A stretch of 23,240 bases of DNA from a candidate division KSB1 bacterium (lineage in GTDB: Bacteria; Zhuqueibacterota; JdFR-76; DREG01), in NCBI GenBank assembly GCA_022566355.1, contig JADFJB010000075.1:1-23240 (forward strand), read 5' to 3'. Below the pieces are notes generated by a model. It saw only the letters and a program-made list of their open reading frames with translations. It made no database searches and was not told where the DNA came from. Below, in pieces: positions 2,930 to 22,944 of the stretch. The stretch's first letter is position 1. Every line of letters begins with the position of its first letter. Position numbers and translations under genes: made by a program.

Positions 2930-5900
2930 TTACCAGACCATAATAGCGTTAGCCACAGCCCTGGGTTCCGGCGGTAGGCTGTAAACATCTTTTTCATAAT
3001 CATGGTTGTAGGGTGAAATATTTAGAATATTATTATCAACAACCAAGGTGCTACTGCCTCCGGGATCGAAGCCCATCGCATCAACAATTCCTTGAGCTTT
3101 GAGGATTTCCGCCATGTCGATGTGCGTAGCCCCGACGGATTCCCGTATGCGGCCATTAATCGCTAAAATTGACAGATCGCCATTACGATCTATTCCAATC
3201 GCGATTTTAGGCCCCCGCATATCCGTGTAGTCTAATCGAGCAGCCTGGGTCCTGATCGAATTACCCGTCTTCCACCCTTCCAGTTCCATGTTAATACAAC
3301 CTTCAGCATCTTTCAGAAGTTGCGGACCAGCTTCAATAGCCGATTCAATTTCTTCCCAGTCATTCATTCGAATGTTAAGCTCTTGTCCAGGTTGCCATGT
3401 CTTTGGCATTAGATTTACAGGAAAGGAAAGCGTCAATCCTACAGGTAAAACTGAGATGTTTTGCCCTTTTTCCGTGGAAATAACTTCTTTTATTTTATTA
3501 CCAGCCAATCTTACCAATGTCCTGCCATTTCCCGGCAGATTGTTTGGCTCATAAAGTAAGTCATAAAAACAAGGTGTTTCAAAAGGTGTTGTAAGGTTGT
3601 AAGATTCTTTTGAAAAGTGGATTGGGCCCATCGGACCATCAATGGTGATGCCTTTGGAACAGTTGACTAGCCGGATATCCAGGTTGCCATTCGGCATAAC
3701 CAGGAAAGCTGGTTTGTTGAACAGGGGTGGCGCAAGCACTTTTCCTTCGGAAATGATCAACCCGAGCGGGGACCCAATAAATATTTCAGGAATACCAAGT
3801 TTGCCAACGAGTTCCGGATTTAAAATGTAGCCGCCATTCCAGGCAATTCTCACGTTTTTTTCAACTTTCCGGGAAAATTCTTCAATAAATTCCATAACCG
3901 TCTTCGGTCTATCTGAAGTCGAAACAACAGAAAAGTGCCATTTTTTTTGTGACTTGCTAATAGCAAGATGAGCCAACACTCCAGCCCATGGCAAGCCATC
4001 CGAATAGATGTCATTAATGGAACTGTGTGTAACTTCATCATCTTGCCGTTCTGATTGATCCAATTTTTTTAGAACAGTCTTGATAGGTGTTCCTTTTTCC
4101 TCAGCGTCATTTTTCAGCACTTTTAGTACATTCTCTTCCCCCATAGAATCACACAATTTGCGGAATCGGAAACTGTCAAGGATCTTGCTCAGTCCTTTAC
4201 CATCCTGAACCGATGTCGGAAATGCCAGGTTAAACCTCAGTCCTGCAGGAACCCACTGAACATAACCACTTCCCATAGGTATACCCAGAATTTTTTCGGC
4301 TAATATGTGGGAGACTTTGCCAATGTGGATGCGGTCGACATCTACGATATCAGTCATCATAGCGGCATTGTCACCAACAGTGATCAGTATGCCTTTTCTA
4401 TCCCTGATTTTTTCAAGTGCCTCTGCTGCTTTTCTGCCAATTTCATAGAAGTGAATACCGACACTAAATTGTTTACTTTTAATGATTTTACAGACACCAC
4501 GCTCAAAAAGCAACTTAAGTTCTTTGTTATCGCTGTAGTATATATGAGATTTTAGCACCTCGGCTGTCACGGAATTGCCTAATGATTTTTCACGTTGAAT
4601 AATATAAATAGGCGCCAGATCAACACGATCAAAGAACCTTTCATGGATTTTTTCATTTTTTTCCAAGCCTAATCGTCTCCTTACCGGGTCGAGAGCAAAT
4701 AGTTCTAATTCGAGTTCGAGATTTCGGCCAGGAACCAGGGCAATAGGGGTATTTCGTTCTAAATGTTCTTCAAGTTCTTCAACATTGTCAATTGCTAAAT
4801 CAGCATTATCATAAAGTGTAGCTAAATTAGTATTCCAGTTGTCACTAATGCGAGAACTTTCAATTTTAATGATTGGAGGCGGCGCTATGATCTTATTATA
4901 AAGAAGATTGATTACACCTGTTAACTCCTGAGGTGTTAAATCGTGGTAAGGATAGCAATTTTTGTTGCGATGACGATAAGCGAGCGAGTGGTCATGGCGT
5001 ATTTGGAATTCACTCTTTCGATATGTAAAAATGTCATCGACACTATTAAAAAATTCGTGCATCAAATCCAGTGGCACTGGCGTTGGGTCTGGCGTATAAT
5101 CGACCAATTCCTGTGCAAACTGCATAGCCCATCCGCGCAATTTCTTTTCTTCAACTCTAAAGTAACTCGGATCGATCAGGGATTTAAGGAAAATCATAAA
5201 TCCCATTTGGCCATAGCCAGGCAGGTATTGGCGGTGGTTTGTGTTAAGCAGATTTGATGCGTATTCTTTGTTTTCGTTTAAGTGGTGTTGATACTCCTCC
5301 AGAGACCTTTGTGCAATTCTGGCTGAAATATGCTCTGGACTTAGCTGCAAATAAAGCTTTTCCAATATTTTTTCAAATTCGCTAACCAGGGCATCGAAAC
5401 TATACCGTTTTTCAACGATTTGTTTGTTTCGAGCTTTAAAATGCTCGTATCCCTTTGGAGAGAAAAGTTGGCGTTTAACCAACTCAATAATATCATTGCT
5501 CAATTCAGGATCGGTAAATTCGATTACCGTAAGGCGTTCGGATTTTGGCAAATGTTCGCCAATCACATTGGAGTAGGCAACTTCAGGTTCATAGCGTCGG
5601 CAGAAGATAGGGATACCACATGCAGCGGCTTCGATAATAGGCAGGCCACGCCCTTCGGTTTCACTTGGAAGCATCACCAATGAAGCAATATTGTATAATT
5701 CAGAAATTTTGATGGGATGTTCAAAATGTTGGATGAAGGAAGGTTTATCGTATTGGCTCAACATAAATCCCAAGAATATTTTGTTTCTGTGTTTTTCCTG
5801 AAGCCTTGCGATGGTATCGCCAAATGATTGGATGACATGTAGAAAGTATTTGAAATGGCCGGTCGCGATTGGCCCCGAAACCAGTATTGTTATTTTCAAT

Positions 5901-7075
5901 TGTTCATTTTGCTCAAAATATTCGTTTACTTCATCATCCTCAAATAGTTTTCTGATCAAAGTAAAATTAATTTCGATGGTTTTTCTGCTGAGAATTCTTG
6001 TTGGCTGCAGTAATATAATGTTATCCTGCTCAAAATCAATGAATGAACCATCATCAGCCCCGATCAAAACAGGTTTCAAACTTTCTTCTTTTTGACTATA
6101 TAAGTCTATTGTTGTTGCAACCGAATTGACCTGAACTGTTCCGTTATTATTGGCGAACATTGCGGCTAATTGACGAAAGATTTCGCTTTTTCGGTGATCA
6201 TCTATCTCATGATATTTTTCAAAATCAATGGCAGTGTCAATATGAGTTACATTTGCGGGATTGAGACCATGCCAACGGATGAGCTGTTCGGTCTGGAAAG
6301 CATTAATATTAACGGATAACCAGGAGCGTGAGTCCCACGGATAAATCATTTCTAGGATTGAAAAAACTTCACCTAAATGGTAGTTCTTGAAAAAGTGGTC
6401 TCGTGCGCCAGGTTTGATATTATGGTAGGTCGTATCAATTTCACTATGGCCACCCTCCCAGTAGAAGTCGTGATTATTACAAATAACCGGGATACCCAGA
6501 TATTCTGAAATAAAAACCAGGGCTAATGCGAGTGAGACGTTCCCGGGATTTGAATTGGTGTTTATTATATATAGCAGCTTGATATCGTTTTCCCGGATGT
6601 AATTGCCGAGCTTTTCGCAAATGACAATCACTTCTTTCCAAAAACTTAAAATCAGTTTATTATAAACATCTCCACCTCTTACCAGTTTTCGGTAGAAAAA
6701 ATCACTGTATAAAGGCCAATTATCAAAGCTAGATAGTTCATCAAGTTGCAAGCATTTCGCTTCCGGAAAACGATAGAATTTGCTATTTTCGTGAAATTCT
6801 CCGGCAATATAGTGCAAGTTAATATTCCCCAATATTTTTTTGAATACCTGTACATACTTTTCACTTTCCATTGTAGCGCCGTCGATTGAATAGGAAAACG
6901 TGATAAAGGCAATACCCCCTTTTGATATCGATTTCAAAAAATCGTCAAAAGATCCGGTAAATTGGGCACTTGGGACTTCCCTGTTTTCTTTAAATCGATC
7001 GATGAATAAGCCAAGATCAAACCAGGTATTAATTTTTTCAGCTTTAAGCTTGTCAAGCATTGTGGTGGCATCCAT
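2930..7075 (-). CDS. GT4 glycosyltransferase-phosphodiester glycosidase fusion
   Basis: This 1381-residue protein has three parts. Residues about 55-580 are a GT-B, GT4-type glycosyltransferase with NNHDFYWEGG (200-209), TRILSRKTIE (359-368) and the E-x7-E motif SETEGRGLPIIE (E474, E482). Residues about 580-1040 match no family I recognise; they include a patch at 895-950 (ILITVGDNAAMM, GYVQWVPAGLR). Residues about 1045-1381 are a phosphodiester glycosidase (NAGPA-type, PF09992-like) domain with WNGGYIL (1079-1085), GPKIAIGI, INGR (1306-1309), GFDPGGSST (1335-1343) and a terminal PRAVANA. No signal peptide or membrane segment is visible, so both activities are predicted in the cytoplasm. It is last of three GT genes, 111 bp after the previous stop. 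It may build and trim a sugar-phosphodiester product, but substrate and product are unknown. Confidence 0.87.
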   Translation of the reverse strand: MDATTMLDKLKAEKINTWFDLGLFIDRFKENREVPSAQFTGSFDDFLKSISKGGIAFITFSYSIDGATMESEKYVQVFKKILGNINLHYIAGEFHENSKFYRFPEAKCLQLDELSSFDNWPLYSDFFYRKLVRGGDVYNKLILSFWKEVIVICEKLGNYIRENDIKLLYIINTNSNPGNVSLALALVFISEYLGIPVICNNHDFYWEGGHSEIDTTYHNIKPGARDHFFKNYHLGEVFSILEMIYPWDSRSWLSVNINAFQTEQLIRWHGLNPANVTHIDTAIDFEKYHEIDDHRKSEIFRQLAAMFANNNGTVQVNSVATTIDLYSQKEESLKPVLIGADDGSFIDFEQDNIILLQPTRILSRKTIEINFTLIRKLFEDDEVNEYFEQNEQLKITILVSGPIATGHFKYFLHVIQSFGDTIARLQEKHRNKIFLGFMLSQYDKPSFIQHFEHPIKISELYNIASLVMLPSETEGRGLPIIEAAACGIPIFCRRYEPEVAYSNVIGEHLPKSERLTVIEFTDPELSNDIIELVKRQLFSPKGYEHFKARNKQIVEKRYSFDALVSEFEKILEKLYLQLSPEHISARIAQRSLEEYQHHLNENKEYASNLLNTNHRQYLPGYGQMGFMIFLKSLIDPSYFRVEEKKLRGWAMQFAQELVDYTPDPTPVPLDLMHEFFNSVDDIFTYRKSEFQIRHDHSLAYRHRNKNCYPYHDLTPQELTGVINLLYNKIIAPPPIIKIESSRISDNWNTNLATLYDNADLAIDNVEELEEHLERNTPIALVPGRNLELELELFALDPVRRRLGLEKNEKIHERFFDRVDLAPIYIIQREKSLGNSVTAEVLKSHIYYSDNKELKLLFERGVCKIIKSKQFSVGIHFYEIGRKAAEALEKIRDRKGILITVGDNAAMMTDIVDVDRIHIGKVSHILAEKILGIPMGSGYVQWVPAGLRFNLAFPTSVQDGKGLSKILDSFRFRKLCDSMGEENVLKVLKNDAEEKGTPIKTVLKKLDQSERQDDEVTHSSINDIYSDGLPWAGVLAHLAISKSQKKWHFSVVSTSDRPKTVMEFIEEFSRKVEKNVRIAWNGGYILNPELVGKLGIPEIFIGSPLGLIISEGKVLAPPLFNKPAFLVMPNGNLDIRLVNCSKGITIDGPMGPIHFSKESYNLTTPFETPCFYDLLYEPNNLPGNGRTLVRLAGNKIKEVISTEKGQNISVLPVGLTLSFPVNLMPKTWQPGQELNIRMNDWEEIESAIEAGPQLLKDAEGCINMELEGWKTGNSIRTQAARLDYTDMRGPKIAIGIDRNGDLSILAINGRIRESVGATHIDMAEILKAQGIVDAMGFDPGGSSTLVVDNNILNISPYNHDYEKDVYSLPPEPRAVANAIMVW

Positions 7076-7186: not shown

Positions 7187-8464
7187 TTATATATGATAAA
7201 ACAATGTCTCTAATTTTGCCCTTAAAGCATTATACGAAAAATGCATTTTACCTAAGTTATAGTTATTTTCGCCAATTTCTTTCTGCAATTTCTTGTCATG
7301 AATAATTTGATCAATTTCAGCTACAGCCTTGTCAGTGAGCTTACCGTCTTCGATCATAACAATTTCAAATCCTTTGCTGCCGATATCTTGCCAGAAAACT
7401 GGCTTGTAATTATTGACAAATACTGGAGTTTTGGCAAGAGCCGCCTCGACAAAGGCATTTCCAAAACCTTCATAGGTGCTGAAATAGGTACAGGCAGTCG
7501 CATGCGCATATGCATCTGAGAGGGAGTACACTTTTTCGCCCTGCAGGTTTTTGCCTCTATCATTCAAGATGCGGTGTGAAGCAAAGATGATACGTTCGTT
7601 CAATTTCTGTTCATCTATCATTGCAATTAATTCTTTGTAATAGCCCTTACGATCATCATCAGCTGCGCTACCCGTAATCACTAGTTTAATCCTTTTGTCA
7701 TCCAGTTTTTTGATCAATTCTATTGCTGTCTCAATACCCTTCCTTTTCACAATCCTGGTAATTTGAAACAATAGGATATCGTCCTTTTTCAAACCCAAAT
7801 TTTCAGGAAGGTCATCGTTATAGTCATCTTTTTCACCATAGGATAAATCGAAATCCATGACATTAGGCACGAATAATGATTCGATATTAAATTCTTTTTT
7901 AAGATAATCCTTACTGTAGGTATTGATTACCGCATGTCGGACATGTTTTATCTGAATGGGAAATGTCTCGGTTATTATTTCCTGAACCTCCTCAAAAGGA
8001 GTGGAATAGCGCGTTCCTCTCTCCCAATGAAAATCGTGATCATGACAAATCATTTTGATACCTGTATGTTCTACCAACTTTTTAATCGCCATACCCATCG
8101 ACAAATGTGCTGGCAATGCCGAAGCATTCTCAGAGATGATCACATCTATATGGTTCTTCATAACCCACTTGAACATCTGGATAGCCAGATCGTCGGATGC
8201 CAATTTCAAATGTAAAAGCAATTCAGAGGGTTCATCCTGCGGAAAGAAGAAAGTTCGATTTTGTTCCCATTCGCAATTTGGAGAAAAAAAGGAAAGACTC
8301 GGAATCAACATCTTGTGGTCTGGAGTAACGATCGATTTTCTAAATCGTCCGGAGAGGATAAAGACTTCATGCCCCATTTGATGCAAAATCTTGATCCACT
8401 TCTCGGTCTCCAATGCAACACCGTCCACATCTCCGATTCTTCCAATAATAATTCCAACTTTCAT
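7187..8464 (-). CDS. Glycosyltransferase family 4 protein, paralogue A
   Basis: This 425-residue protein is a GT-B fold, GT4-type retaining transferase, probably using a nucleotide-sugar donor. The N-terminus MKVGIIIGRIGDVDGVALE is the first Rossmann strand and glycine-rich acceptor-side loop. HDHDFHWERG lies at 141-150, the donor-side RKGIE at 241-245 and the E-x7-E motif YEGFGNAFVE at 331-340. AGGAG lies seven bases before the ATG. It aligns without gaps to the neighbouring 425-residue protein at roughly 70% identity by eye, so the two arose by tandem duplication. No export signal is visible. Acceptor and sugar are unknown; a soluble glycoside or glycerate-type solute is possible from the family but not shown. 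Confidence 0.9.
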   Translation of the reverse strand: MKVGIIIGRIGDVDGVALETEKWIKILHQMGHEVFILSGRFRKSIVTPDHKMLIPSLSFFSPNCEWEQNRTFFFPQDEPSELLLHLKLASDDLAIQMFKWVMKNHIDVIISENASALPAHLSMGMAIKKLVEHTGIKMICHDHDFHWERGTRYSTPFEEVQEIITETFPIQIKHVRHAVINTYSKDYLKKEFNIESLFVPNVMDFDLSYGEKDDYNDDLPENLGLKKDDILLFQITRIVKRKGIETAIELIKKLDDKRIKLVITGSAADDDRKGYYKELIAMIDEQKLNERIIFASHRILNDRGKNLQGEKVYSLSDAYAHATACTYFSTYEGFGNAFVEAALAKTPVFVNNYKPVFWQDIGSKGFEIVMIEDGKLTDKAVAEIDQIIHDKKLQKEIGENNYNLGKMHFSYNALRAKLETLFYHI

Positions 8465-8619: not shown

Positions 8620-9897
8620 TTAGATGTGGTAGAACAAAGCCTCAAGTCTCTCCCTTAATACATGATATGAAAAGTTGGTTTGGCCTAAAAGATAATTGTA
8701 GTCTGCCATTTCTTTTTGCAGTTTTTTATCGTAAAGAACTTTCTCCATTTCAGATATTGTTTTATCTGTTAACTTGGAATCTTCAATCATTACTGTCTTG
8801 AAACCTTTATTGCCAATGTCTTCCCAATAAACCGGTTTGTAGTTGTTTACAAAAATGGGTTTTTTAGCCAGTAAGACTTCTACAAATGTATTGCCAAATC
8901 CTTCGTAAGTACTGAAGTAGGTACATGCAGTTGCGTGGGCATAAGCATCGGAAAGTGAATAGACCTTTTCTCCATTTCTGCCCTGTGATCTATCGTTGCG
9001 AATCTTATGGTCTGCAAAAATAACTTTGCCATTTAACTTCTTGTCATTTATCGTTTCTATTAATTCTTTATAATAGCCTTTGCGATCGTCGTCGGCAGCA
9101 CTTCCAGTTATAACTAACTTGATTTTTTTATTGTCCAACTTTTCAACAAGCTCAAGAGCTGTTTCTATCCCTTTTCTCCTTAAGATCCGGGTTACTTGGA
9201 ATAAAGGAATATCATCTTTTTCTAAATTCAAGGCCTGCAATAAGTCCTTATTGTATTCATCCTTTACACCGTATGGTTGGTCAAAGTCCATGACATTGGG
9301 TACAAGCACTGAATCGATATTGTAGTTCTTTCTGAGATATTCTTTGCTGTAGGTATTGATCACCGCGTGCCGGGCATGTGGGATCTGCGGGGGAAAGGTT
9401 TCTTCGACGATCTTCTGCACTTCTGGGAATGGCGTGAAATAGCGTGTGCCTCTTTCCCAATGAAAGTCATGGTCGTGGCAAATGATATTGATGCCAGTAT
9501 TCTCAACCAGTTTCTTAATGCCCATGCCCATAGATAAATGAGCAGGCAGTGCTGAGGCATTTTCGGATATAATCACATCCAGGTTATTTTTCATGACCCA
9601 TTTGAACATCTGAATGGCAAGATCATCGGAAGCCACATGTAAGTGACTCAATAATTCAGATGGTTCATCGGGGGGGAAAAAGAAAGCTCTGTTCTGTTCC
9701 CATTCACAATTGGGCGAGAAGAAAGACAAACTTGGAAGCACAGTTGTATGTTCGTTCTCAACAACTTTTTTTGTAATGCGACCACACAGGATAAATATCT
9801 CATGCCCCATTTTCTGTAAAATATGAATCCATTTTTCTGTTTCCAGGGCAACGCCGTCAACATCACCTATTCTACCAATAATAATTCCAACCTTCAT
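8620..9897 (-). CDS. Glycosyltransferase family 4 protein, paralogue B
   Basis: The first gene of the three-gene glycosyltransferase locus encodes 425 residues, the same length as paralogue A. The first 24 residues, the HDHDFHWERG block, TGSAADDDRKGYYKELI and YEGFGNTFVE are identical or nearly so. Differences concentrate around residues 40-55, 210-230 and 295-310, the kind of places where acceptor specificity may differ. Both Glu of the E-x7-E motif are kept, so it should be active. A 155-bp gap separates it from paralogue A, long for a compact operon, so an internal promoter is possible. An inverted repeat at 9939-9985 lies 42-88 bp before the start and may be regulatory. Confidence 0.9.
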   Translation of the reverse strand: MKVGIIIGRIGDVDGVALETEKWIHILQKMGHEIFILCGRITKKVVENEHTTVLPSLSFFSPNCEWEQNRAFFFPPDEPSELLSHLHVASDDLAIQMFKWVMKNNLDVIISENASALPAHLSMGMGIKKLVENTGINIICHDHDFHWERGTRYFTPFPEVQKIVEETFPPQIPHARHAVINTYSKEYLRKNYNIDSVLVPNVMDFDQPYGVKDEYNKDLLQALNLEKDDIPLFQVTRILRRKGIETALELVEKLDNKKIKLVITGSAADDDRKGYYKELIETINDKKLNGKVIFADHKIRNDRSQGRNGEKVYSLSDAYAHATACTYFSTYEGFGNTFVEVLLAKKPIFVNNYKPVYWEDIGNKGFKTVMIEDSKLTDKTISEMEKVLYDKKLQKEMADYNYLLGQTNFSYHVLRERLEALFYHI

Positions 9898-10599: not shown

Positions 10600-11370
10600 C
10601 TACTCACCAATTTCCAACGCTTCCAGAACTTCCGTAGCAATCATTTCTGCAAGCTTATCTAGCATTTCACGGCCATGGTCTTCTGTAGCTTTTGCCGGAG
10701 CACCGGCATACGATTTTGTCAAACCCATTTCAGCGAAATCAATGATACCGGCATTTATTTTTTTAGACAAACTGATGGGTACTTCAGGCAGTTCTAATCT
10801 CTTATCATCATCAACCATTGCAGGTGTTGCAGACATCATTATAGAAGTTTCATATTCGCCGGCATGGCACTCGCCCCTTTTGAATTCATCGGACAGTGTT
10901 CGTCCCCATCGTTTTGTGAGTGGGCATGCAACGGATGCTTTGCCGGTTTCTATCTCTTTTATCGAATTATTTATCGCAGTAAACTGGACTGGCTCAAGAT
11001 GATTATTGATTAAGCAGACATGCGCTACGCCATTCTTTAAGAAAGCGTGGATTACTTCTCTTAAATAAGAAGTCAATGTTTCTGAAGAAATGGAAATGGC
11101 TCCTTTAAAAGCGCTGGCACACTCCGTCACGCCATAATGAACCGGCGGAGCTATCAACGGAATTACCTGATTTTGCTCAAGAATATTCGCAGCGCGGATA
11201 GCAGCATGATGAGAGATTACCGTATCCGTGATGAGCGGCAGGTGTGGGCCATGCGGTTCCAGTACCCCAACGGGCAATAAAATTACAACTGGTTTATTAC
11301 TCTCGATGAATTGGGCGAATTGTTCCGTGGTAAGCTCAGCCAAGCTATATTTGTTCGCTTTCATTTCCAT
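10600..11370 (-). CDS. Creatininase-family amidohydrolase
   Basis: This 256-residue protein belongs to the creatininase (creatinine amidohydrolase) family, metal-dependent hydrolases of cyclic or linear C-N bonds. The metal site is visible: EPHGPHLPLITD at 38-49 (E38, H40, D49), NNHLEP at 122-127 (H124, E126) and the later CHAGEYETS block. Its start overlaps the ligase stop by 10 bp, so the two are translationally coupled. Lying at the end of an aryl-CoA catabolic operon with a Rid protein, it may act on a nitrogen-containing intermediate or a lactam/amide by-product of anthranilate breakdown; that role is inferred. True creatinine hydrolysis is not supported by the context. An in-frame ATG two codons in is an alternative start. 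Confidence 0.87.
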   Translation of the reverse strand: MEMKANKYSLAELTTEQFAQFIESNKPVVILLPVGVLEPHGPHLPLITDTVISHHAAIRAANILEQNQVIPLIAPPVHYGVTECASAFKGAISISSETLTSYLREVIHAFLKNGVAHVCLINNHLEPVQFTAINNSIKEIETGKASVACPLTKRWGRTLSDEFKRGECHAGEYETSIMMSATPAMVDDDKRLELPEVPISLSKKINAGIIDFAEMGLTKSYAGAPAKATEDHGREMLDKLAEMIATEVLEALEIGE

Positions 11371-13070
11371 GGACTTTGACCAGACTTTTCCTGCTCAATA
11401 AGGACTTTACGATCGACTTTACCGCGATCGTTTCTCGGAAGATCCCCGACAAAAATTACCCAACGTGGATATTTGTGTTTCGACAACTTGCTTTTGACAA
11501 AATCCTGAAGTTCAATTCTAAGATTATTTTTAGCATCTTCATTAGAAATGCGGGGTAACTCGTTTTCACGAATCACGACAAATGCTTTGGGCTTGTCTAA
11601 TCCATCTCCTTTTGCCGGAATAACAGCAGCCATCGCAATCGCAGGGTGTTCCTGCAAGCATTCCTCGACCTCCAGCGGCGCTACCCAGATGCCGCCGACT
11701 TTAAACAGGCTGTCTGCACGGCCGGAGAACCACAGGTAGCCATCTGCATCCAAGCGGAATAAATCACCGGTTTTGCACCAATGGCCATGGAAGGTTTGCC
11801 AGCTTTTGTCGCGATCCTGAAAATAGCCCAAGGCTACACTATCGCCCTTTACCCACATGACTCCGGTTTCATTTGCGGGTAGTTCTTGCGCTCCGGGACC
11901 ATCAGCATTTGTGGGAAGGATTTTGATTGTATAGCCATTAACAACACGGCCAAGTGATCCCGGTTTTATATCACCAAGACGATTGCTGGCATAAATATGG
12001 AACATTTCAGCCGAGCCGATGCCATCATAGACGTCGTTACCAAAGCGTTCCATAAACCGCTTAAGAAGTGCGGGTGGCAATGCTTCCCCGGCAGATAAAT
12101 GAAAACGAACACAGGATAAATCCAGGCCTGCTTTGCCTGATTTAATCAATGCATCATCATAGTCAAGCAGTTTAGACATCATTGTTGGAACATTTGTAAC
12201 GATAGTTGGCCGGTACATTTCTATGGCCTTCGCCAGGTTTTCCGGTGTTGGCGGTTCTGAATATAAACAAGCCGTAGCGCCGACAGCGAATGGAAACATT
12301 AAATTTGTACCGGTTGAATAGCCAAAAAATAAACGGGGGACGCTTACCGTACTGTCATCAGTTTTGTAACCGACTGTCCCTTTTGCGTATACTTCAGTGT
12401 TAAATGCAAAATCCCGATGAGTATGAACTGCCGCTTTCGGTTCCCCGGTAGAACCTGATGTAAATAACCAAACCGCTAAATCATCGCGTTTGATATCCGG
12501 AGGGGTGGTATGTTTATGATCCCTGCCTTTTTCTATAGCCTCGGATAACGAAATGATTTCAATCCGAGTATGGTCCAATGAGTGCGCTATTCTGCACCGG
12601 GCTTCCGGATTCTCTCCTGTAGCAGTACCCGGAACAAGTAAAATTGCTTTTAAATATGTATTTTTTCCTAGCGAATGCGATAGGTTTTCTACAACTATTG
12701 GCAGTGTAATTAAAACAGTCGCTCGACTATACGCAAGGACATATTCCAAGTCTATAATCGGAGCTGAAGGATTGCCCATAGCCACCACAGCCCCATGAGC
12801 TAACGTCGCAAAAAAAGACCAGGCAAACGGCGGAACATCCGGCAAAACCGTGTATATTCTCTCTTCTCTACCGACACCTATAGATTGAAAATAGTTAGCA
12901 AGACAGCGAGTTCTTTCAGCAACCTCCGAATATGTGTATTTCAGTTCACCATATCGAATCGCAACTTTGTCTCCCAATCCTTCCTTTAAACGATCGAATA
13001 GATAATAATCTGCGAGATTAAACACATCGGGAAATTTCACTTCTTTGGAATGCTTTTGTATCGAAGCCAT
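11361..13070 (-). CDS. Benzoate/2-aminobenzoate-CoA ligase family protein
   Basis: This 569-residue acyl-adenylate enzyme converts an aromatic acid, ATP and CoA to the aryl-CoA thioester in the cytoplasm. Motifs in order: the ATP loop TSGSTGEPKA (204-213), YDGIGSAEMFHIYASNR (348-364), which is characteristic of the benzoate-CoA ligase branch, TGDLFRLDADGYLWFSGRAD (434-453) and the catalytic lysine K551 in PRNDRGKVDRK. Length is slightly above the usual 510-540 residues. With an adjacent aryl-CoA monooxygenase the likely substrate is 2-aminobenzoate (anthranilate); benzoate or salicylate are alternatives. It follows the Rid gene by 61 bp and overlaps the creatininase gene. No obvious defects are seen. 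Confidence 0.88.
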   Translation of the reverse strand: MASIQKHSKEVKFPDVFNLADYYLFDRLKEGLGDKVAIRYGELKYTYSEVAERTRCLANYFQSIGVGREERIYTVLPDVPPFAWSFFATLAHGAVVAMGNPSAPIIDLEYVLAYSRATVLITLPIVVENLSHSLGKNTYLKAILLVPGTATGENPEARCRIAHSLDHTRIEIISLSEAIEKGRDHKHTTPPDIKRDDLAVWLFTSGSTGEPKAAVHTHRDFAFNTEVYAKGTVGYKTDDSTVSVPRLFFGYSTGTNLMFPFAVGATACLYSEPPTPENLAKAIEMYRPTIVTNVPTMMSKLLDYDDALIKSGKAGLDLSCVRFHLSAGEALPPALLKRFMERFGNDVYDGIGSAEMFHIYASNRLGDIKPGSLGRVVNGYTIKILPTNADGPGAQELPANETGVMWVKGDSVALGYFQDRDKSWQTFHGHWCKTGDLFRLDADGYLWFSGRADSLFKVGGIWVAPLEVEECLQEHPAIAMAAVIPAKGDGLDKPKAFVVIRENELPRISNEDAKNNLRIELQDFVKSKLSKHKYPRWVIFVGDLPRNDRGKVDRKVLIEQEKSGQSPWK

Positions 13071-13131
13071 AAATATCTACATCTTTCAAAAATTCTTACA
13101 TCATAATAATTTCTTATTTATTAATCATTGT

Positions 13132-13530
13132 TCAAATGTCCATTGGCAGCACCGCAGTTGCTTCAATTTCCACTTTGGCTCTTGTTTCCAAAAGCGCTGA
13201 AACCTGGAATAAACTCATAGCGGGATAATGTCTGCCAATTTCTTCATGATAAACTATGCCAATTTCTTGTAATGAGTTTCGATAATCTTCCAGGTTGATC
13301 AGGTACCAAACCATGCGGACGATATGTTCAGGTTTGGCTTTGGCCTCCGCCAAAATTCTAACAACATTTTGAAGACATTGTCGAACTTGATCGATCAAGC
13401 TATTATTTACGATTTCAGAATCTTTATTCCATGCAACCTGACCGGCAACAAAAATCATTTCTCCTTTTACTTGAATACCATTACTATATCCGGAAGGTTT
13501 TTTCCATTCTTCAGGTTGTAATATTTTCAT
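13132..13530 (-). CDS. Rid (YjgF/YER057c/UK114) family protein
   Basis: This 132-residue protein has the family's normal length. RidA proteins form trimers and hydrolyse reactive enamines/imines. FVAGQVAWNKD (27-37) and KVEIEATAVLP (119-129) mark the family. The arginine that RidA uses to bind the substrate carboxylate (R105 in the enterobacterial protein, in the P-A-R-S context) is replaced: here the sequence is YPAMS with Met at 105. Archetypal 2-aminoacrylate deaminase activity is therefore unlikely; it fits Rid subfamilies that lack this residue. It lies 14 bp after the acyl-CoA dehydrogenase stop. A role on the enamine-type product of 2-aminobenzoyl-CoA dearomatisation is attractive but inferred. 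Confidence 0.88.
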   Translation of the reverse strand: MKILQPEEWKKPSGYSNGIQVKGEMIFVAGQVAWNKDSEIVNNSLIDQVRQCLQNVVRILAEAKAKPEHIVRMVWYLINLEDYRNSLQEIGIVYHEEIGRHYPAMSLFQVSALLETRAKVEIEATAVLPMDI

Positions 13531-13544
13531 TTAAATATCTCTAT

Positions 13545-14705
13545 TTACAGTTCTTTTAGTGTTTCTTTTGCGATGATAAGTTTTTGAATTTCCGATGTGC
13601 CTTCATAAATCCGCAACGGACGAATATCACGATACAGTTCCTCTACGGGCATTCCTGAAACCACACCCAAACCACCAAATATCTGCACAGCAGAATCAAT
13701 AACTTGTTGAGCTGATTCAGTCGCATATAGCTTGGCCATTGCGGCTTCTCTCGGGATTCGCTCAGCGCCATTGTCCTTGCTCCACGCGGCACGATAAACC
13801 AACAGAGCACTGGCGTCGATCTGAACAGCCATTTCTGCAATCTTTTGCTGAATCATTTGATATTCTGAAAGCAACTGACCGGATATTTGCCGTTTTTTGC
13901 ATCGGGCCACTGCTTCATCCAATGCTTTCCTGGCAAAACCCAATGCAGCTGCTCCTACCGTAGATCTAAAAACATCCAATGTGGATAATGCTATTTTCAG
14001 TCCTTGTCCTGGTAATCCAACTAATTGGGATTCTGGTACACGGCAGTTTTTAAAGATGATGGTACCCAAAGGATGTGGTGAAATAATCTCAATTTTTTCA
14101 CTGCACTCAAGCCCGCTTGTGTTTGCATCCACTACAATTGCTGTAAGTCCATTGTTGCGATCCTCTCCCGGGTTTTGTCCAAATACAACATAAAAATCAG
14201 CAATTCCAGCATTGGATATCCATGTTTTGCTGCCGTTAAGAATATAATCTGAACCTTCTTTTTCGATTGTTGTCTGGATAGAGTTTAAGTCGGAACCGGC
14301 ATCCTTTTCAGATAAAGCAAATGCGGCAATGGCGCTGCCAGCTGCAACTTTCAGAAGATATTTCTCCTTTAACTCACCAGAGCCAAATAAAGAAATAGCC
14401 CCGCTACCTAAACCCTGCATAGCAAATACAAAATCAGCCAAACTGGAATATCTTGCAAGCGTCTCCCTGATGATACATAAAGAGCGCACATCAAGTTTTT
14501 CATTAATGCCGCCAAAATTCTCAGGAACCACGTATTTCAACCAACCGGTTTCGCCAAGACTTAGTACGATTTGCTTGCATGCTTCATATTCATCTTCTTT
14601 TTGGTATGAAGGTATATTCTCCCTGGCCCATGTTTCAAGGGACTTAGCAAGCTCACGATGGTTCTCGCTGAAAAATGGCCAGGAAAGAAAGGTTTTGTCA
14701 GGCAT
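13545..14705 (-). CDS. Acyl-CoA dehydrogenase
   Basis: This 386-residue FAD enzyme removes two hydrogens alpha-beta to a CoA thioester and passes electrons to ETF. FALSEKDAGSDLNS (about 129-142), TWISNAGIADFYVVFG (161-176), GGLGV and the C-terminal IYEGTSEIQKLIIA are standard. The Glu in YEGTSE (about 368) is the expected catalytic base. A TTG one codon earlier (14708) is possible, but I prefer the ATG at 14705. It overlaps the enoyl-CoA hydratase stop as TGATG, and AAGGA lies five bases upstream. In the cluster it would oxidise the alicyclic CoA intermediate after dearomatisation. The exact substrate is inferred. Confidence 0.92.
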   Translation of the reverse strand: MPDKTFLSWPFFSENHRELAKSLETWARENIPSYQKEDEYEACKQIVLSLGETGWLKYVVPENFGGINEKLDVRSLCIIRETLARYSSLADFVFAMQGLGSGAISLFGSGELKEKYLLKVAAGSAIAAFALSEKDAGSDLNSIQTTIEKEGSDYILNGSKTWISNAGIADFYVVFGQNPGEDRNNGLTAIVVDANTSGLECSEKIEIISPHPLGTIIFKNCRVPESQLVGLPGQGLKIALSTLDVFRSTVGAAALGFARKALDEAVARCKKRQISGQLLSEYQMIQQKIAEMAVQIDASALLVYRAAWSKDNGAERIPREAAMAKLYATESAQQVIDSAVQIFGGLGVVSGMPVEELYRDIRPLRIYEGTSEIQKLIIAKETLKEL

Positions 14706-15514
14706 CAATTTCCTTCAAATTTAGGGATTTCTTTCTTTACGAATGCATGATACGCCCTGTGAAAGTCTTTTGTTTGCATACAAATTGCCTGAGCCTTGGC
14801 TTCTGCCTCCACTGATTCTACTATGCCCATTTCCCACTCTTCACGAAGCATTTTTTTAGTCATCGCGTGGGCAAAAGTTGGACCTGTTGCTATCATCTCG
14901 GCAAAGGACTGAGATTCTTGCAATAGCTTATTCGGTTCATAAATTCGATTGTAAAATCCACAGCTAAATGCTTCGGGTCCCTTCATAACTCTGCCGGTAT
15001 AAAGCAGCTCAGCGGCTCGTCCATGTCCAATAATTCGCGGTAGAATTGAGCAAGCGCCCATGTCGCAGCCGGCAAGCCCTACCCGTACAAATAAAAATGC
15101 CACTTTACTTTGTTCTGTACCAAACCGTAAATCAGAGGCCATTGCAATTGCAGCGCCTGCTCCAACACAGATTCCATCAATCGCTGATATAATTAACTGG
15201 GGACAGGTTTGCATGGCGATGATCAAGTCTCCTGTCATTTTAGTAAATTTGTTCAGATCTACCTCATCCATTTCCACCAGGGGCCCGATAATCTCATGCA
15301 CATCCCCACCAGAGCAGAAATTGCCTCCAGATCCCGTAAACACTACGGATTTCACATCCTCCACTTCTATTAAATTGCGGAACAAGTCCCTCAATTCAGC
15401 ATAAGAATCGAATGTTAACGGATTTTTTCTTTCCGGTCGATTCAACGTGATCGTCGCAACTTTGTTTTTAACCGACCAGAGAAAATGTTTCGGCTTGAAA
15501 TCTGAACCCTTCAT
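14705..15514 (-). CDS. Enoyl-CoA hydratase/isomerase family protein
   Basis: This 269-residue crotonase-fold enzyme has the oxyanion-hole segment [17 protein letters not shown] and the second one around [20 protein letters not shown]. The region that normally holds the second catalytic Glu reads [20 protein letters not shown], where Asp (in CDMGA) may substitute. This variant fits the enoyl-CoA hydratase branch associated with 2-aminobenzoate/salicylate-CoA clusters as I remember it. The start ATG has AGGAG four bases upstream (15519-15523). It is the first gene of the five-gene unit running to the creatininase gene and is separated by 360 bp from the monooxygenase gene. Hydration of a ring or ring-opened enoyl-CoA is the likely step. 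Confidence 0.9.
14711..14715 (-). promoter_or_regulatory. Shine-Dalgarno AAGGA of the acyl-CoA dehydrogenase gene
   Basis: AAGGA lies inside the hydratase 3' end, five bases before the ATG at 14705. It favours ATG over the adjacent TTG at 14708 and points to translational coupling. Confidence 0.6.
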
Positions 15515-15680
15515 GCCTCTCCTTCTTATTCACCAATTGTCATGAGAATATCTCGATTTGTATATAAATGTGCGATCTTTTTCTTTAAATCACAAAAAAC
15601 AAATCATAAATTCCAATTAAATTTCAATTTCTAATTTAACATGGATTAATTCAATCTTAAGTAAAATATATCATTATCAG

Positions 15681-15714
15681 CCTTCGACGATTTTATCCTA
15701 AGCGATGTCGAAGG
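15681..15714. repeat. Inverted repeat CCTTCGAC/GTCGAAGG
   Basis: Perfect 8-bp arms (15681-15688 and 15707-15714) enclose 18 bp. The TTCGAC/GTCGAA pattern resembles palindromic intergenic repeats seen in many genomes. There is no T-tract, so it is not a canonical terminator. Confidence 0.4.
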
Positions 15715-15774
15715 GGCCAGGTCTGCAGAAACTTAAGTTCGATTCTGTTCACAATGGCATCAAAAAATTTAACG

Positions 15775-15794
15775 TGAGTTTGACATCAAACTCA
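15775..15794. promoter_or_regulatory. 20-bp perfect palindrome, operator or terminator
   Basis: TGAGTTTGA-CA-TCAAACTCA has 9-bp perfect arms around two bases. The compact dyad is the size of a TetR- or MarR-type operator and lies 261 bp before the hydratase start. On the minus strand an A+T-rich tract with six T's follows the hairpin after a few bases, 80 bp beyond the monooxygenase stop, so a weak terminator is the alternative. Confidence 0.45.
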
Positions 15795-15874
15795 GCCATT
15801 TAGTATTTTTATTTTCGAAAATTGGGTATTGGAGTTTATTTGTCATTTGATTTTTGTTATTTGACATTTTTGTT

Positions 15875-18166
15875 TTAGATAGGTCCAATTTGCGATTCTC
15901 TCGCTCGACGAGACAAAGTCTCCAATTGCTGCTTGCCACTCAAGTACTGGTCGGGCCATTTAATATCCTCATAACCAAGCTGAGCTGCTGCACGCAAAGT
16001 CCAGAACGGATCCCAAAGATGAGGCCGGGCAAGCAAGCAGAGATCTGCGCGTCCGGCTGCAATAATGCTGTTTACATGATCCGGTTCATAGATATTTCCA
16101 ACCGCCATTGTGGCAATCCCGACTTCCAGGCGAATCCTTTCTGAAAAGGGCACCTGGTACATCCTGCCATATACAGGTTCTTGATCGGGGCTGACCTGGC
16201 CGGCAGATACGTCAACGATATCAACATCGTGCTGTTTTAGCATCTTTGCAATTTCGATTGAATCATCGATAGTGATGCCATTCTTTACCCAATCAGAAGC
16301 AGAAATCCGCACAGACATTGGCTTATTCTCAGGCCAAACTGCACGCATTGCGTCGAAGACTTCGAGGGGATATCGCATTCGGTTTTCCAATGAACCGCCA
16401 AAGTCATCGCTACGAATATTGGTAATTGGCGATATGAAGCTGGATAACAAATAACCATGTGCACAATGCAGCTCCAAAAGATCGAAACCAGCTTCATCGG
16501 CCTTAAGGGTGGCTGCCACAAAATCTTTTTTGATCCGCACCATATCTTCAGTCGTCATTTCGACAGGAACCTGGTTTTGTTCTGTGTACGGAATCGGAGA
16601 TGGCGCATAAATGGGCCAGTTGTCACCATCCAGGGGAACATCGTAGCCTTCCCAACCCAATTTTGTCGAACCTTTTCTACCCGCGTGACCAATCTGCAAT
16701 CCAAACTTAATTTCACCATACTGATGCACAAAATCAACAATTCGTTTCCAGGCTGTTGTATGTTCGTCGCTATACAAACCGGCACATCCGGGGGTAATGC
16801 GGGCGTCCGGCGAAACACATGTCATTTCTGTAAACAGCAATCCGGCGCCGCCCATTGCTCGAACGCCAAAATGCACAAAATGGAAATCGGTAACTTTTCC
16901 ATCCACTGCACTGTACATGGCCATGGGTGAACAAACAACTCGATTTTTGATCTCCATCTCCCGGATTCGAAATGGCAGAAACATAGGTGGAATGGCTTTC
17001 GCATGTTCTCTACCGGTTGACTTCGTACCCAACCACTTTTCAAAATTCTCTAAATAGGCTTTATCACGTAACCGTAAGTTTTCATGGCTAACTCTTTGGC
17101 TGCGGGTAATCAGGCTGTATGCGAATTGTTCAGGTTCCAGGTGGCCTTTCAACCCGACTTGCTCAAACCATTCCGTACTGTTGCGTGCGGCACTTTGCAA
17201 CCGAAGGACCTCGATTCTTCTTTCTTCCTGATAATTCTGCAATGCAGTTTCCAGATCGTCATACTCATGGATTTTGTTAGACAAAGCAATGGCACTCTCC
17301 AGGGCTAATTTTGTGCCGGAACCTATAGAAAAATGAGCGGTGGCTGCTGCATCGCCCAATAGTACTGTTTTATTGTGGTACCAGTTTTCACAATTCACTC
17401 GTGGGAAACTCATCCAAACAGCCGATCCACGCAAGTTTTCTGCGTTTGAAATCAAGTGATGGCCATCCAAATATTCTGCGAAAAGGTTTTCGCAATACTC
17501 TATACCCTCCTCTTTGCTCATCATATCAATGCCGGCTTTGTACCATACATCTTTATAGCACTCTACAATAAAAGTACTCATGCCTTTTTCGAAGCGATAG
17601 CAGTGAGCTTGAAACCAGCCAAATTCTGTTTCCTTAAAAATAAATGTGAAGGCACCAAAAGTCTTACGAGTACCCAGCCAAACATATTTGCAGTGACGAA
17701 AATCGAAATCCGGCTTAAATTTATTCTCATATTTTTTTCGAATGATGCTGTTTGCGCCGTCTGCAGCTACGATTAAATCAGCACCCATAAATTCGGTATC
17801 ATTCTGAATATCATTTTCGAAATCAATTTTGACACCCACCTCTTCCGCTCGTTTTGTCAAAATTTCTAATAGAGTCTGACGAGAAATGCCGCTAAAACCA
17901 TGTCCACCGGATTTAATGATTTTTCCACCGAAATGAACATCGATATCGTCCCAATGCACAAAAGCGTCTGTAATTTGAGTGTAGGTTTCTGCATCAACTG
18001 ATTTTAGATTATCCAGCGTACCATCGGAAAAGACAACCCCCCAGCCATAGGTATTGCCGCGTTCATTTCTTTCGAAAATAGAAAGTTCATGCGAGGGGTC
18101 TTTCATTTTCATTTGAATGGCGAAATAAAGGCCCGCAGGGCCGCCGCCAATAATGGCTACTTTCAT
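15875..18166 (-). CDS. 2-aminobenzoyl-CoA monooxygenase/reductase-type flavoprotein (salicylyl-CoA 5-hydroxylase family)
   Basis: This 763-residue two-domain flavoprotein has an N-terminal FAD monooxygenase (about 1-380) with [12 protein letters not shown] (5-16), [12 protein letters not shown] (40-51) and [20 protein letters not shown] (269-288). The C-terminal Old Yellow Enzyme-type FMN reductase (about 395-745) has [10 protein letters not shown] (491-500) and [14 protein letters not shown] (567-580). This fusion is known for 2-aminobenzoyl-CoA monooxygenase/reductase of Azoarcus evansii, which hydroxylates and then reduces the ring to 2-amino-5-oxocyclohex-1-ene-carboxyl-CoA. Automated annotation often calls it bifunctional salicylyl-CoA 5-hydroxylase/oxidoreductase. 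The neighbouring ligase, hydratase, dehydrogenase and Rid protein favour anthranilate. The promoter at 18265-18293 precedes it; the leader has no strong ribosome-binding site. Confidence 0.92.
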
Positions 18167-21579: not shown

Positions 21580-22944
21580 TTATTCAAAAGTATTTTTTAC
21601 AGAAGACTTAACCGTTGAATTTTTTATTTCTTTATTATTGATTATACCGTTTTCTTCATCATTAAGAATTTTTGTACGTGGAATGGGTCTTCGAATCGTT
21701 TCCAGTTTAATTCCCGCCTTAATAGCATGCATAATACCAACGGCTTCTAAATAGTTTTCCACAATAAATAATTTACCGGGTTGGAATGGGAGGTCTTCTA
21801 AATTATTTAGCATATAATTTTTGTTTTCTTTAACCGCAATAACGGGTATGCCATGTTCCATTGCCGCTAATGTTGGCAGACCAATACAACCATCCGGAAT
21901 AATTAAACAAGAAATATCTTCAACATTTAATCCTTTATCATATGAAACGATCTTAGGGCTTTTGTGCAAGCCTTTTAATATACAATGAAGATATGTAACC
22001 GAGGATGTCTCTGGCGCTTTTCTTGGATCTACAATACCAACATCCAGATCCATTATTTCTCTGGAAACCATCATTGGAGAATGAGCACATGGAACTCTAA
22101 ACTCTTCTGCAATACTATGTGTTAACATGGCTTCAATTCCGCCCCATGGATTTATCATTTCAATGTCCTTAAAATAATCGGTATGGTAACATTTTGGCAC
22201 TTCAATAAAAGTCGATAAACCAATCGCATCGTATTGATCTGCAAATTTATTAATTATCTCGAAAAGCCTTTCCAGGTGTTCAACCCTTCCTATAGCCCTG
22301 CCTGAGTTTGAATATGCCGAAACACTTTTTATGATGTGATCCATTTCATATACATCACAATCAATTCCTAAAGATATCCTGGCCGAAGAAACCGCATTGA
22401 TTATTTCATTATTAAATAATTCTTCTTCATGTTTATCCATTAGCATGAGTATTCTGTTGGACCGTACTTTTTTTAATCCTATTTGTCCCATCATTAAGCG
22501 AGTAATAATACTCCCCTCGACATATAGCGTATTCTCTGTCATTTCATTGATGTCGGATGCATTCACAACATTTGGATGGGTGATTAATTCATCACAAGCA
22601 GAAGCAATATATCTGGCAACTGCATTCCCATCGCCACAATGACCGCCAAACTTAGCGCCAATTCCAGTTGGAATTAATAATACTGCATTGAATTGTTGAG
22701 TGTTTTCAAATTCACGTTTATTGAAATTAAATATAGAATTGTTTTGAGAAACAGGATAATTTTCATTATTGACTAATGTGCCTAATTCACAAAAGTAGCC
22801 ATTATCATCAGTTAGTGAGATAACAAAACGATTCGGTATTTCATTCGAGCCAAGTTGTTCAATTGTTTTATTTGAAATGTACTCAAGCAAATCTTGATTA
22901 TCTGGTGTCTTTGGAATGATTATTTGTTTTTCTTCTAGTATCAT
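21580..22944 (-). CDS. DUF3326 family protein
   Basis: This 454-residue protein matches DUF3326 from about residue 85 to 420. The conserved blocks are LLIPTGIGAKFGGHCGDGNA (89-108), THPNVVNASDINEM (122-135), YVEGSI, INPWGGIEAMLTHSIA (264-279), AHSPMM, DPRKAPE, IIPDGCIGLPTLAAMEHGIP (348-367) and VENYLEA (395-401). The family is widespread, but I know of no defined biochemical function. An N-terminal extension of about 85 residues and a polar C-terminal tail lie outside the core. The gene starts 3 bp after the stop of the S-adenosylmethionine decarboxylase-like gene and precedes the desaturase by 43 bp. No signal peptide is visible. Confidence 0.9.
   Translation of the reverse strand: MILEEKQIIIPKTPDNQDLLEYISNKTIEQLGSNEIPNRFVISLTDDNGYFCELGTLVNNENYPVSQNNSIFNFNKREFENTQQFNAVLLIPTGIGAKFGGHCGDGNAVARYIASACDELITHPNVVNASDINEMTENTLYVEGSIITRLMMGQIGLKKVRSNRILMLMDKHEEELFNNEIINAVSSARISLGIDCDVYEMDHIIKSVSAYSNSGRAIGRVEHLERLFEIINKFADQYDAIGLSTFIEVPKCYHTDYFKDIEMINPWGGIEAMLTHSIAEEFRVPCAHSPMMVSREIMDLDVGIVDPRKAPETSSVTYLHCILKGLHKSPKIVSYDKGLNVEDISCLIIPDGCIGLPTLAAMEHGIPVIAVKENKNYMLNNLEDLPFQPGKLFIVENYLEAVGIMHAIKAGIKLETIRRPIPRTKILNDEENGIINNKEIKNSTVKSSVKNTFE

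Follow-up and report, generated by a model that had tools for sequence, protein, structure and literature searches.

A GT4, DUF89-fold and NAGPA-type fusion protein and its companion glycosyltransferase in uncultured bacteria

What might be the function of a single polypeptide that carries both a glycosyltransferase and a phosphodiester glycosidase and lacks an export signal? The question is raised by a gene in the 23,240-nucleotide stretch of DNA analyzed here (the window), which an earlier note, made from the sequence alone, had read as a fusion of a GT4 transferase with a glycosidase related to animal NAGPA. The gene is a single unbroken ORF of 1381 codons with an ATG start, running from 7075 to 2930 on the minus strand, and the window contains 0 N bases; the coordinates and length given in that note were exact, with the strand left out. 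Both of the named domains are present in the one chain, with Pfam families PF00534 and PF09992 each exceeding its gathering cut-off, but the two-domain reading overlooked a third domain of about 350 residues lying between them and a companion GT4 encoded nearby. The protein has a three-part architecture, consisting of a GT4 domain of the mannosylglucosylglycerate-synthase clade, a DUF89-fold domain and a NAGPA-type domain. What is chiefly new here is the DUF89-fold domain, along with the companion GT4. A fusion of a glycosyltransferase with a phosphodiester glycosidase was not found described in the published literature that was searched. The relevant features of the window are the following.

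2930..7075, minus strand: whole fusion protein, GT4 + DUF89-fold + NAGPA, 1381 aa (ATG start, Pfam, homologues)
5282..7075, minus strand: GT4 half, residues 1-598, with an N-terminal extension of ~50 residues (Pfam, profile-profile, GT-B fold, conservation)
4205..5275, minus strand: DUF89/ARMT1-fold domain, residues about 601-957 (two AF2 models; fold matches 1xfi, 2g8l, 2ffj)
2933..4018, minus strand: NAGPA-type phosphodiester glycosidase domain, residues about 1020-1381 (Pfam, profile-profile, fold matches 5h3k, 3ohg, 6pku)
7187..8464, minus strand: companion GT4, 425 aa, mannosylglucosylglycerate-synthase-like (NF041101 E 6.3e-66, under the equivalog cut-off)
8620..9897, minus strand: second, tandem companion GT4 copy, 74% identical to the first (NCBIfam, neighbour clustering)

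Domain architecture of the fusion protein

The N-terminal half is predicted from sequence and models to be a retaining GT-B enzyme of family GT4. Glycos_transf_1 (PF00534) matches residues 454-496 (E 7.5e-8), and the EX7E glutamates E474 and E482, together with R364 and K365, the donor-phosphate Arg/Lys pair (RK, residues 364-365), are invariant in 24-25 homologues. The HDFYW motif occupies residues 202-206. In the AF2 model the GT-B fold matches GT4 structures with Z about 17-18, and the nearest folds include HepE, BshA, PimB' and WaaG. Profile-profile comparison aligns this half with the adjacent GT4 family across the full GT4 domain (E 1.1e-35), and the two have in common DGxxxE, HDFxW, TRIxxRKxIE and the EX7E glutamates, which comprise both donor- and acceptor-side motifs. 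The best NCBIfam match is the mannosylglucosylglycerate synthase NF041101, though at E 7e-11 its 41.5 bits do not reach the equivalog cut-off of 640.

At the other end of the chain, PF09992 matches residues 1238-1381 (E 3.5e-17, 63.6 bits versus a cut-off of 25), and it exceeds the cut-off in all 18 fusion members. The whole domain aligns with 21 NAGPA proteins from the collected loci (profile-profile E 4.5e-33), and its fold matches include human UCE, BACOVA_00430 and Slr0280, with Z about 19-21 in the AF2 model. The likeness to NAGPA/DUF2233 proteins extends over the profile, the fold and the conserved blocks. The NGG, NGR and DPGGSS blocks that the earlier note had picked out are at residues 1080-1082, 1307-1309 and 1337-1342, and are invariant or nearly so in 23-25 homologues. 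The alignment retains NGG and AGPxL, the Asp and the glycines of DxGGSS, and the final Arg, all of them invariant, whereas DGR has become NGR, PRT has become PKI, and the first Gly of DGGGS is replaced to give DPGGS. The fusion domain further differs from other NAGPA/DUF2233 proteins in being joined to a glycosyltransferase, in having no export signal, and in its own nearly invariant insertions, ILNPELVGKLGLPE, EGWKTxNSIxTQAAR and NISPYNxxYExxxYSLPPEPR. These long sequences lie around the active-site motifs and point to a specialized substrate. A GlcNAc specificity carried over from animal NAGPA is unsupported. Across lineages the NAGPA part has the highest identity of the three domains. The concern that catalytic residues of either enzyme might be lost in homologues is not borne out, since catalytic-type residues of the GT and NAGPA domains are both conserved.

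Simple hydropathy gave no sign of a signal peptide or N-terminal membrane helix in the fusion or in any homologue, as had been claimed for the window's protein. The fusion places a NAGPA-type glycosidase in the cytosol, attached to a glycosyltransferase.

The middle domain was recognized from structure. Two separate AF2 models were made from alignments of 24 homologues, one of residues 570-1381 (mean pLDDT 82.3, pTM 0.77) and one of residues 1-1030 (mean pLDDT 84.5, pTM 0.83), and besides the NAGPA and GT-B folds that the earlier note would have led one to expect they contain a DUF89/ARMT1 fold that it did not mention. In the two models, respectively, the middle domain matches 1xfi with Z 19.7 and 17.7, 2g8l with 18.1 and 17.1, and 2ffj with 16.8 and 16.1, over about 230-290 residues, and in the 570-1381 model these matches stand far above the next unrelated ones at Z about 7. 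By sequence, the domain has no significant match in PDB or Pfam, and the PF01937 profile matches none of 21 middle-domain members at E up to 10; the DUF89 assignment is made from the fold only, since an hhalign comparison with DUF89 sequences yielded nothing credible. No stand-alone copy was found outside full fusions in 388 genomes chosen by kinship. This DUF89 fold, within an enzyme of glycoside metabolism, is invisible to current sequence profiles.

Characterized DUF89 proteins are metal-dependent phosphatases (PMC8669784). In a motif reading that follows strand order only, the invariant D763 coincides with the position of the first metal-binding Asp, but the residue after it is N, D or H, E789 or an alanine stands where the Asp of the ND motif is expected, and the KG-loop Lys is not conserved, such that most of the canonical catalytic residues look altered. 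Further invariant acids and bases are D635, E643, D695, H696, R701, R703 and D909, and the helical part has invariant blocks of its own, LKSLIDPS and DHSxxYRHR, not shared with DUF89/ARMT1 phosphatases. The models would make residues ~601-957 a candidate phosphatase or a structural bridge.

Companion glycosyltransferase and proposed pathway

In 18 of 23 loci the fusion adjoins a companion GT4, in varied order and orientation, and neighbour clustering finds no other neighbour that different phyla share. This points to a pathway of two genes whose product would be a small glycosylated metabolite. Three of the five loci without it (L039, L126 and L128) end close to the fusion, and the other two (L040 and L130) lack it in the available sequence. 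The window and two related loci have the companion as a tandem double copy. NF041101 is the best NCBIfam match of each of the window's companions, at about 223 bits against the equivalog cut-off of 640, and the companions share DGxxxE, HDFxW and EX7E with this family, as does the GT half. Both they and the fusion are far below the cut-off, and the synthase itself has neither a DUF89-fold nor a NAGPA domain. Elsewhere in the phylum (genome G008), one operon, which lacks the fusion, encodes a related GT4, a GpgS that exceeds its cut-off and a HAD-type hydrolase; in the window's genome, which is 98.5% complete, no GpgS exceeds the cut-off, and together these observations suggest the fusion as the upstream synthase of a related pathway. 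In two genomes of one family (L120, L121), the cassette is preceded by genes for a PPDK-like enzyme and a HAD hydrolase and followed by one for a sodium:solute symporter, and the hydrolase and symporter would fit a small soluble product.

The reading we prefer, with a probability of roughly 0.35, is that the fusion is a cytosolic multi-domain enzyme that works with the neighbouring companion GT4 to produce a small glycosylated metabolite resembling mannosylglucosylglycerate. With a nucleotide sugar as donor, the GT4 half would glycosylate a small acceptor, acidic or phosphorylated, and the companion would add a second sugar; the NAGPA-type domain may act on an intermediate or by-product, hydrolyzing its alpha-sugar-1-phosphodiester linkage or transferring the sugar from it. 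For the DUF89-fold domain there would be two options, a phosphatase site that has changed greatly or a structural link joining the two enzymes. The fusion would take the place of the separate GpgS synthase and phosphatase found with the related GT4 in other parts of the phylum. The product itself is probably not mannosylglucosylglycerate, as neither GT reaches the NF041101 cut-off. To our knowledge no phosphodiester occurs in a pathway of this type, which leaves the role of the NAGPA domain unexplained by it, and the proposed phosphatase step is weakened by the apparent change of most of the canonical DUF89 catalytic residues.

A make-and-trim enzyme for a sugar phosphodiester, as the earlier note had envisaged, is possible. 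Another tentative reading is that a single-chain enzyme with three sites (the glycosyltransferase, an altered DUF89-fold domain and the phosphodiester glycosidase), together with one partner GT4, builds an undescribed sugar-phosphodiester metabolite, encoded by a two-gene cassette that has spread between phyla. As a conserved unit of two genes, the cassette opens an undescribed glycoside pathway of uncultured phyla to direct testing in E. coli.

TPS-TPP and mannosyl-3-phosphoglycerate synthase/phosphatase are bifunctional enzymes that combine a glycosyltransferase and a phosphate-handling domain in one cytosolic chain, and the fusion follows the same logic, although as far as we know their phosphatases are of the HAD fold and, unlike the fusion, they have no phosphodiester glycosidase. 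By analogy the DUF89-fold domain could be an active metal-dependent phosphatase with rearranged ligands, leaving the NAGPA domain as a third activity. The modeled fold, D763 and the other invariant acids and bases agree with this proposal, yet it is doubtful given that the motif reading finds none of the DN asparagine, the ND motif and the KG-loop lysine retained and that there is no kinship to the DUF89 family at the sequence level.

It is unlikely that the NAGPA-type domain has an editing role, an idea also raised in the earlier note, in which it would hydrolyze nucleotide sugars that are non-cognate or in excess (these being sugar-1-phosphodiesters) or faulty products, made or used by the GT half. 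We know of no GT4 that needs nucleotide-sugar or product editing, a hydrolase constantly active on nucleotide sugars in the cytosol would be wasteful, and the middle domain would be left without a role; against these points stand the constant presence of the NAGPA domain in the same chain as the GT, with both conserved, and the action of animal UCE on UDP-GlcNAc as well (PMC12024695). Less plausible again is a role for the fusion in making and trimming, from the cytosolic side, a surface glycan or a polymer resembling teichoic acid instead of a small metabolite. One locus (L048) does adjoin Wzy, flippase and other GT genes, and HepE, WaaG and PimB' are among the nearest GT folds, but the other 22 loci have no conserved polysaccharide genes, no flippase or lipid carrier gene is common to the lineages among the fusion loci, and hydropathy revealed no membrane-anchoring segment in the fusion.

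Distribution of the fusion and other genes of the window

A search across genomes of the kind the earlier note proposed shows that the three-part protein recurs in several bacterial phyla, with full-length homologues at 37-63% identity. Of 82 genomes in the window's phylum, five others encode it, one of them being candidate division KSB1 isolate OFTM356 (G013). One Bacteroidota family has it in 22 of 117 genomes, in some of these only as fragments at the ends of contigs, and it occurs as well in three genomes from two families outside the phylum. It is absent from the nearest genomes, which belong to the same family and order as the window's (G001-G006), and in a set of 395 genomes spread over the Bacteroidota phylum the centre genome itself was the sole match. 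This patchy occurrence suggests horizontal transfer or repeated loss. Viral contigs contain no relative of the fusion, and plasmids gave one weak NAGPA-like match and nothing more. A defence system was considered and rejected, as there is no PADLOC match for the fusion or the GT4s, and a GT4-conflict Pfam match, part of the same reading, is below cut-off.

The chance that an assembly or binning artefact joined unrelated genes is negligible, for although some homologues sit at contig ends, the architecture is seen in several lineages, independent assemblies supply more than 20 full-length homologues without internal stops, and dN/dS is 0.05-0.18 in each of the three domains (NG86, computable close pairs), indicating strong purifying selection on all of them. 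The fusion is a real, conserved, multi-phylum enzyme and belongs to a metabolic module.

Contigs with the labels Cloacimonadota and Woesearchaeota also contain copies or pieces of the fusion, perhaps because of mis-binning or transfer. One contig labelled Candidatus Woesearchaeota (L040:7734-11879) has the fusion without a companion GT4, and either transfer or mis-binning may account for the fusion's presence there. In the homologue at L048:4759-8745, an in-frame gap removes ~75 residues from the stretch joining the DUF89-fold part to the NAGPA part. In three genomes outside the phylum (L011, L151 and L152) the GT half exists by itself as a protein of ~600 aa, each time followed by a different GT4 gene on the same strand (374-385 aa where complete), and this pairing constitutes a second two-GT module in other phyla.

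Elsewhere in the window, an aerobic aryl-CoA degradation cluster occupies 10600-18166 on the minus strand and includes a benzoate-CoA ligase family gene, an acyl-CoA dehydrogenase, a PRK08258 enoyl-CoA hydratase, an NF006101 bifunctional salicylyl-CoA 5-hydroxylase/oxidoreductase, Rid and creatininase-family proteins; it looks like a pathway of the 2-aminobenzoyl-CoA type. At 21580-22944, also on the minus strand, a DUF3326 protein adjoins a fatty acid hydroxylase family protein.
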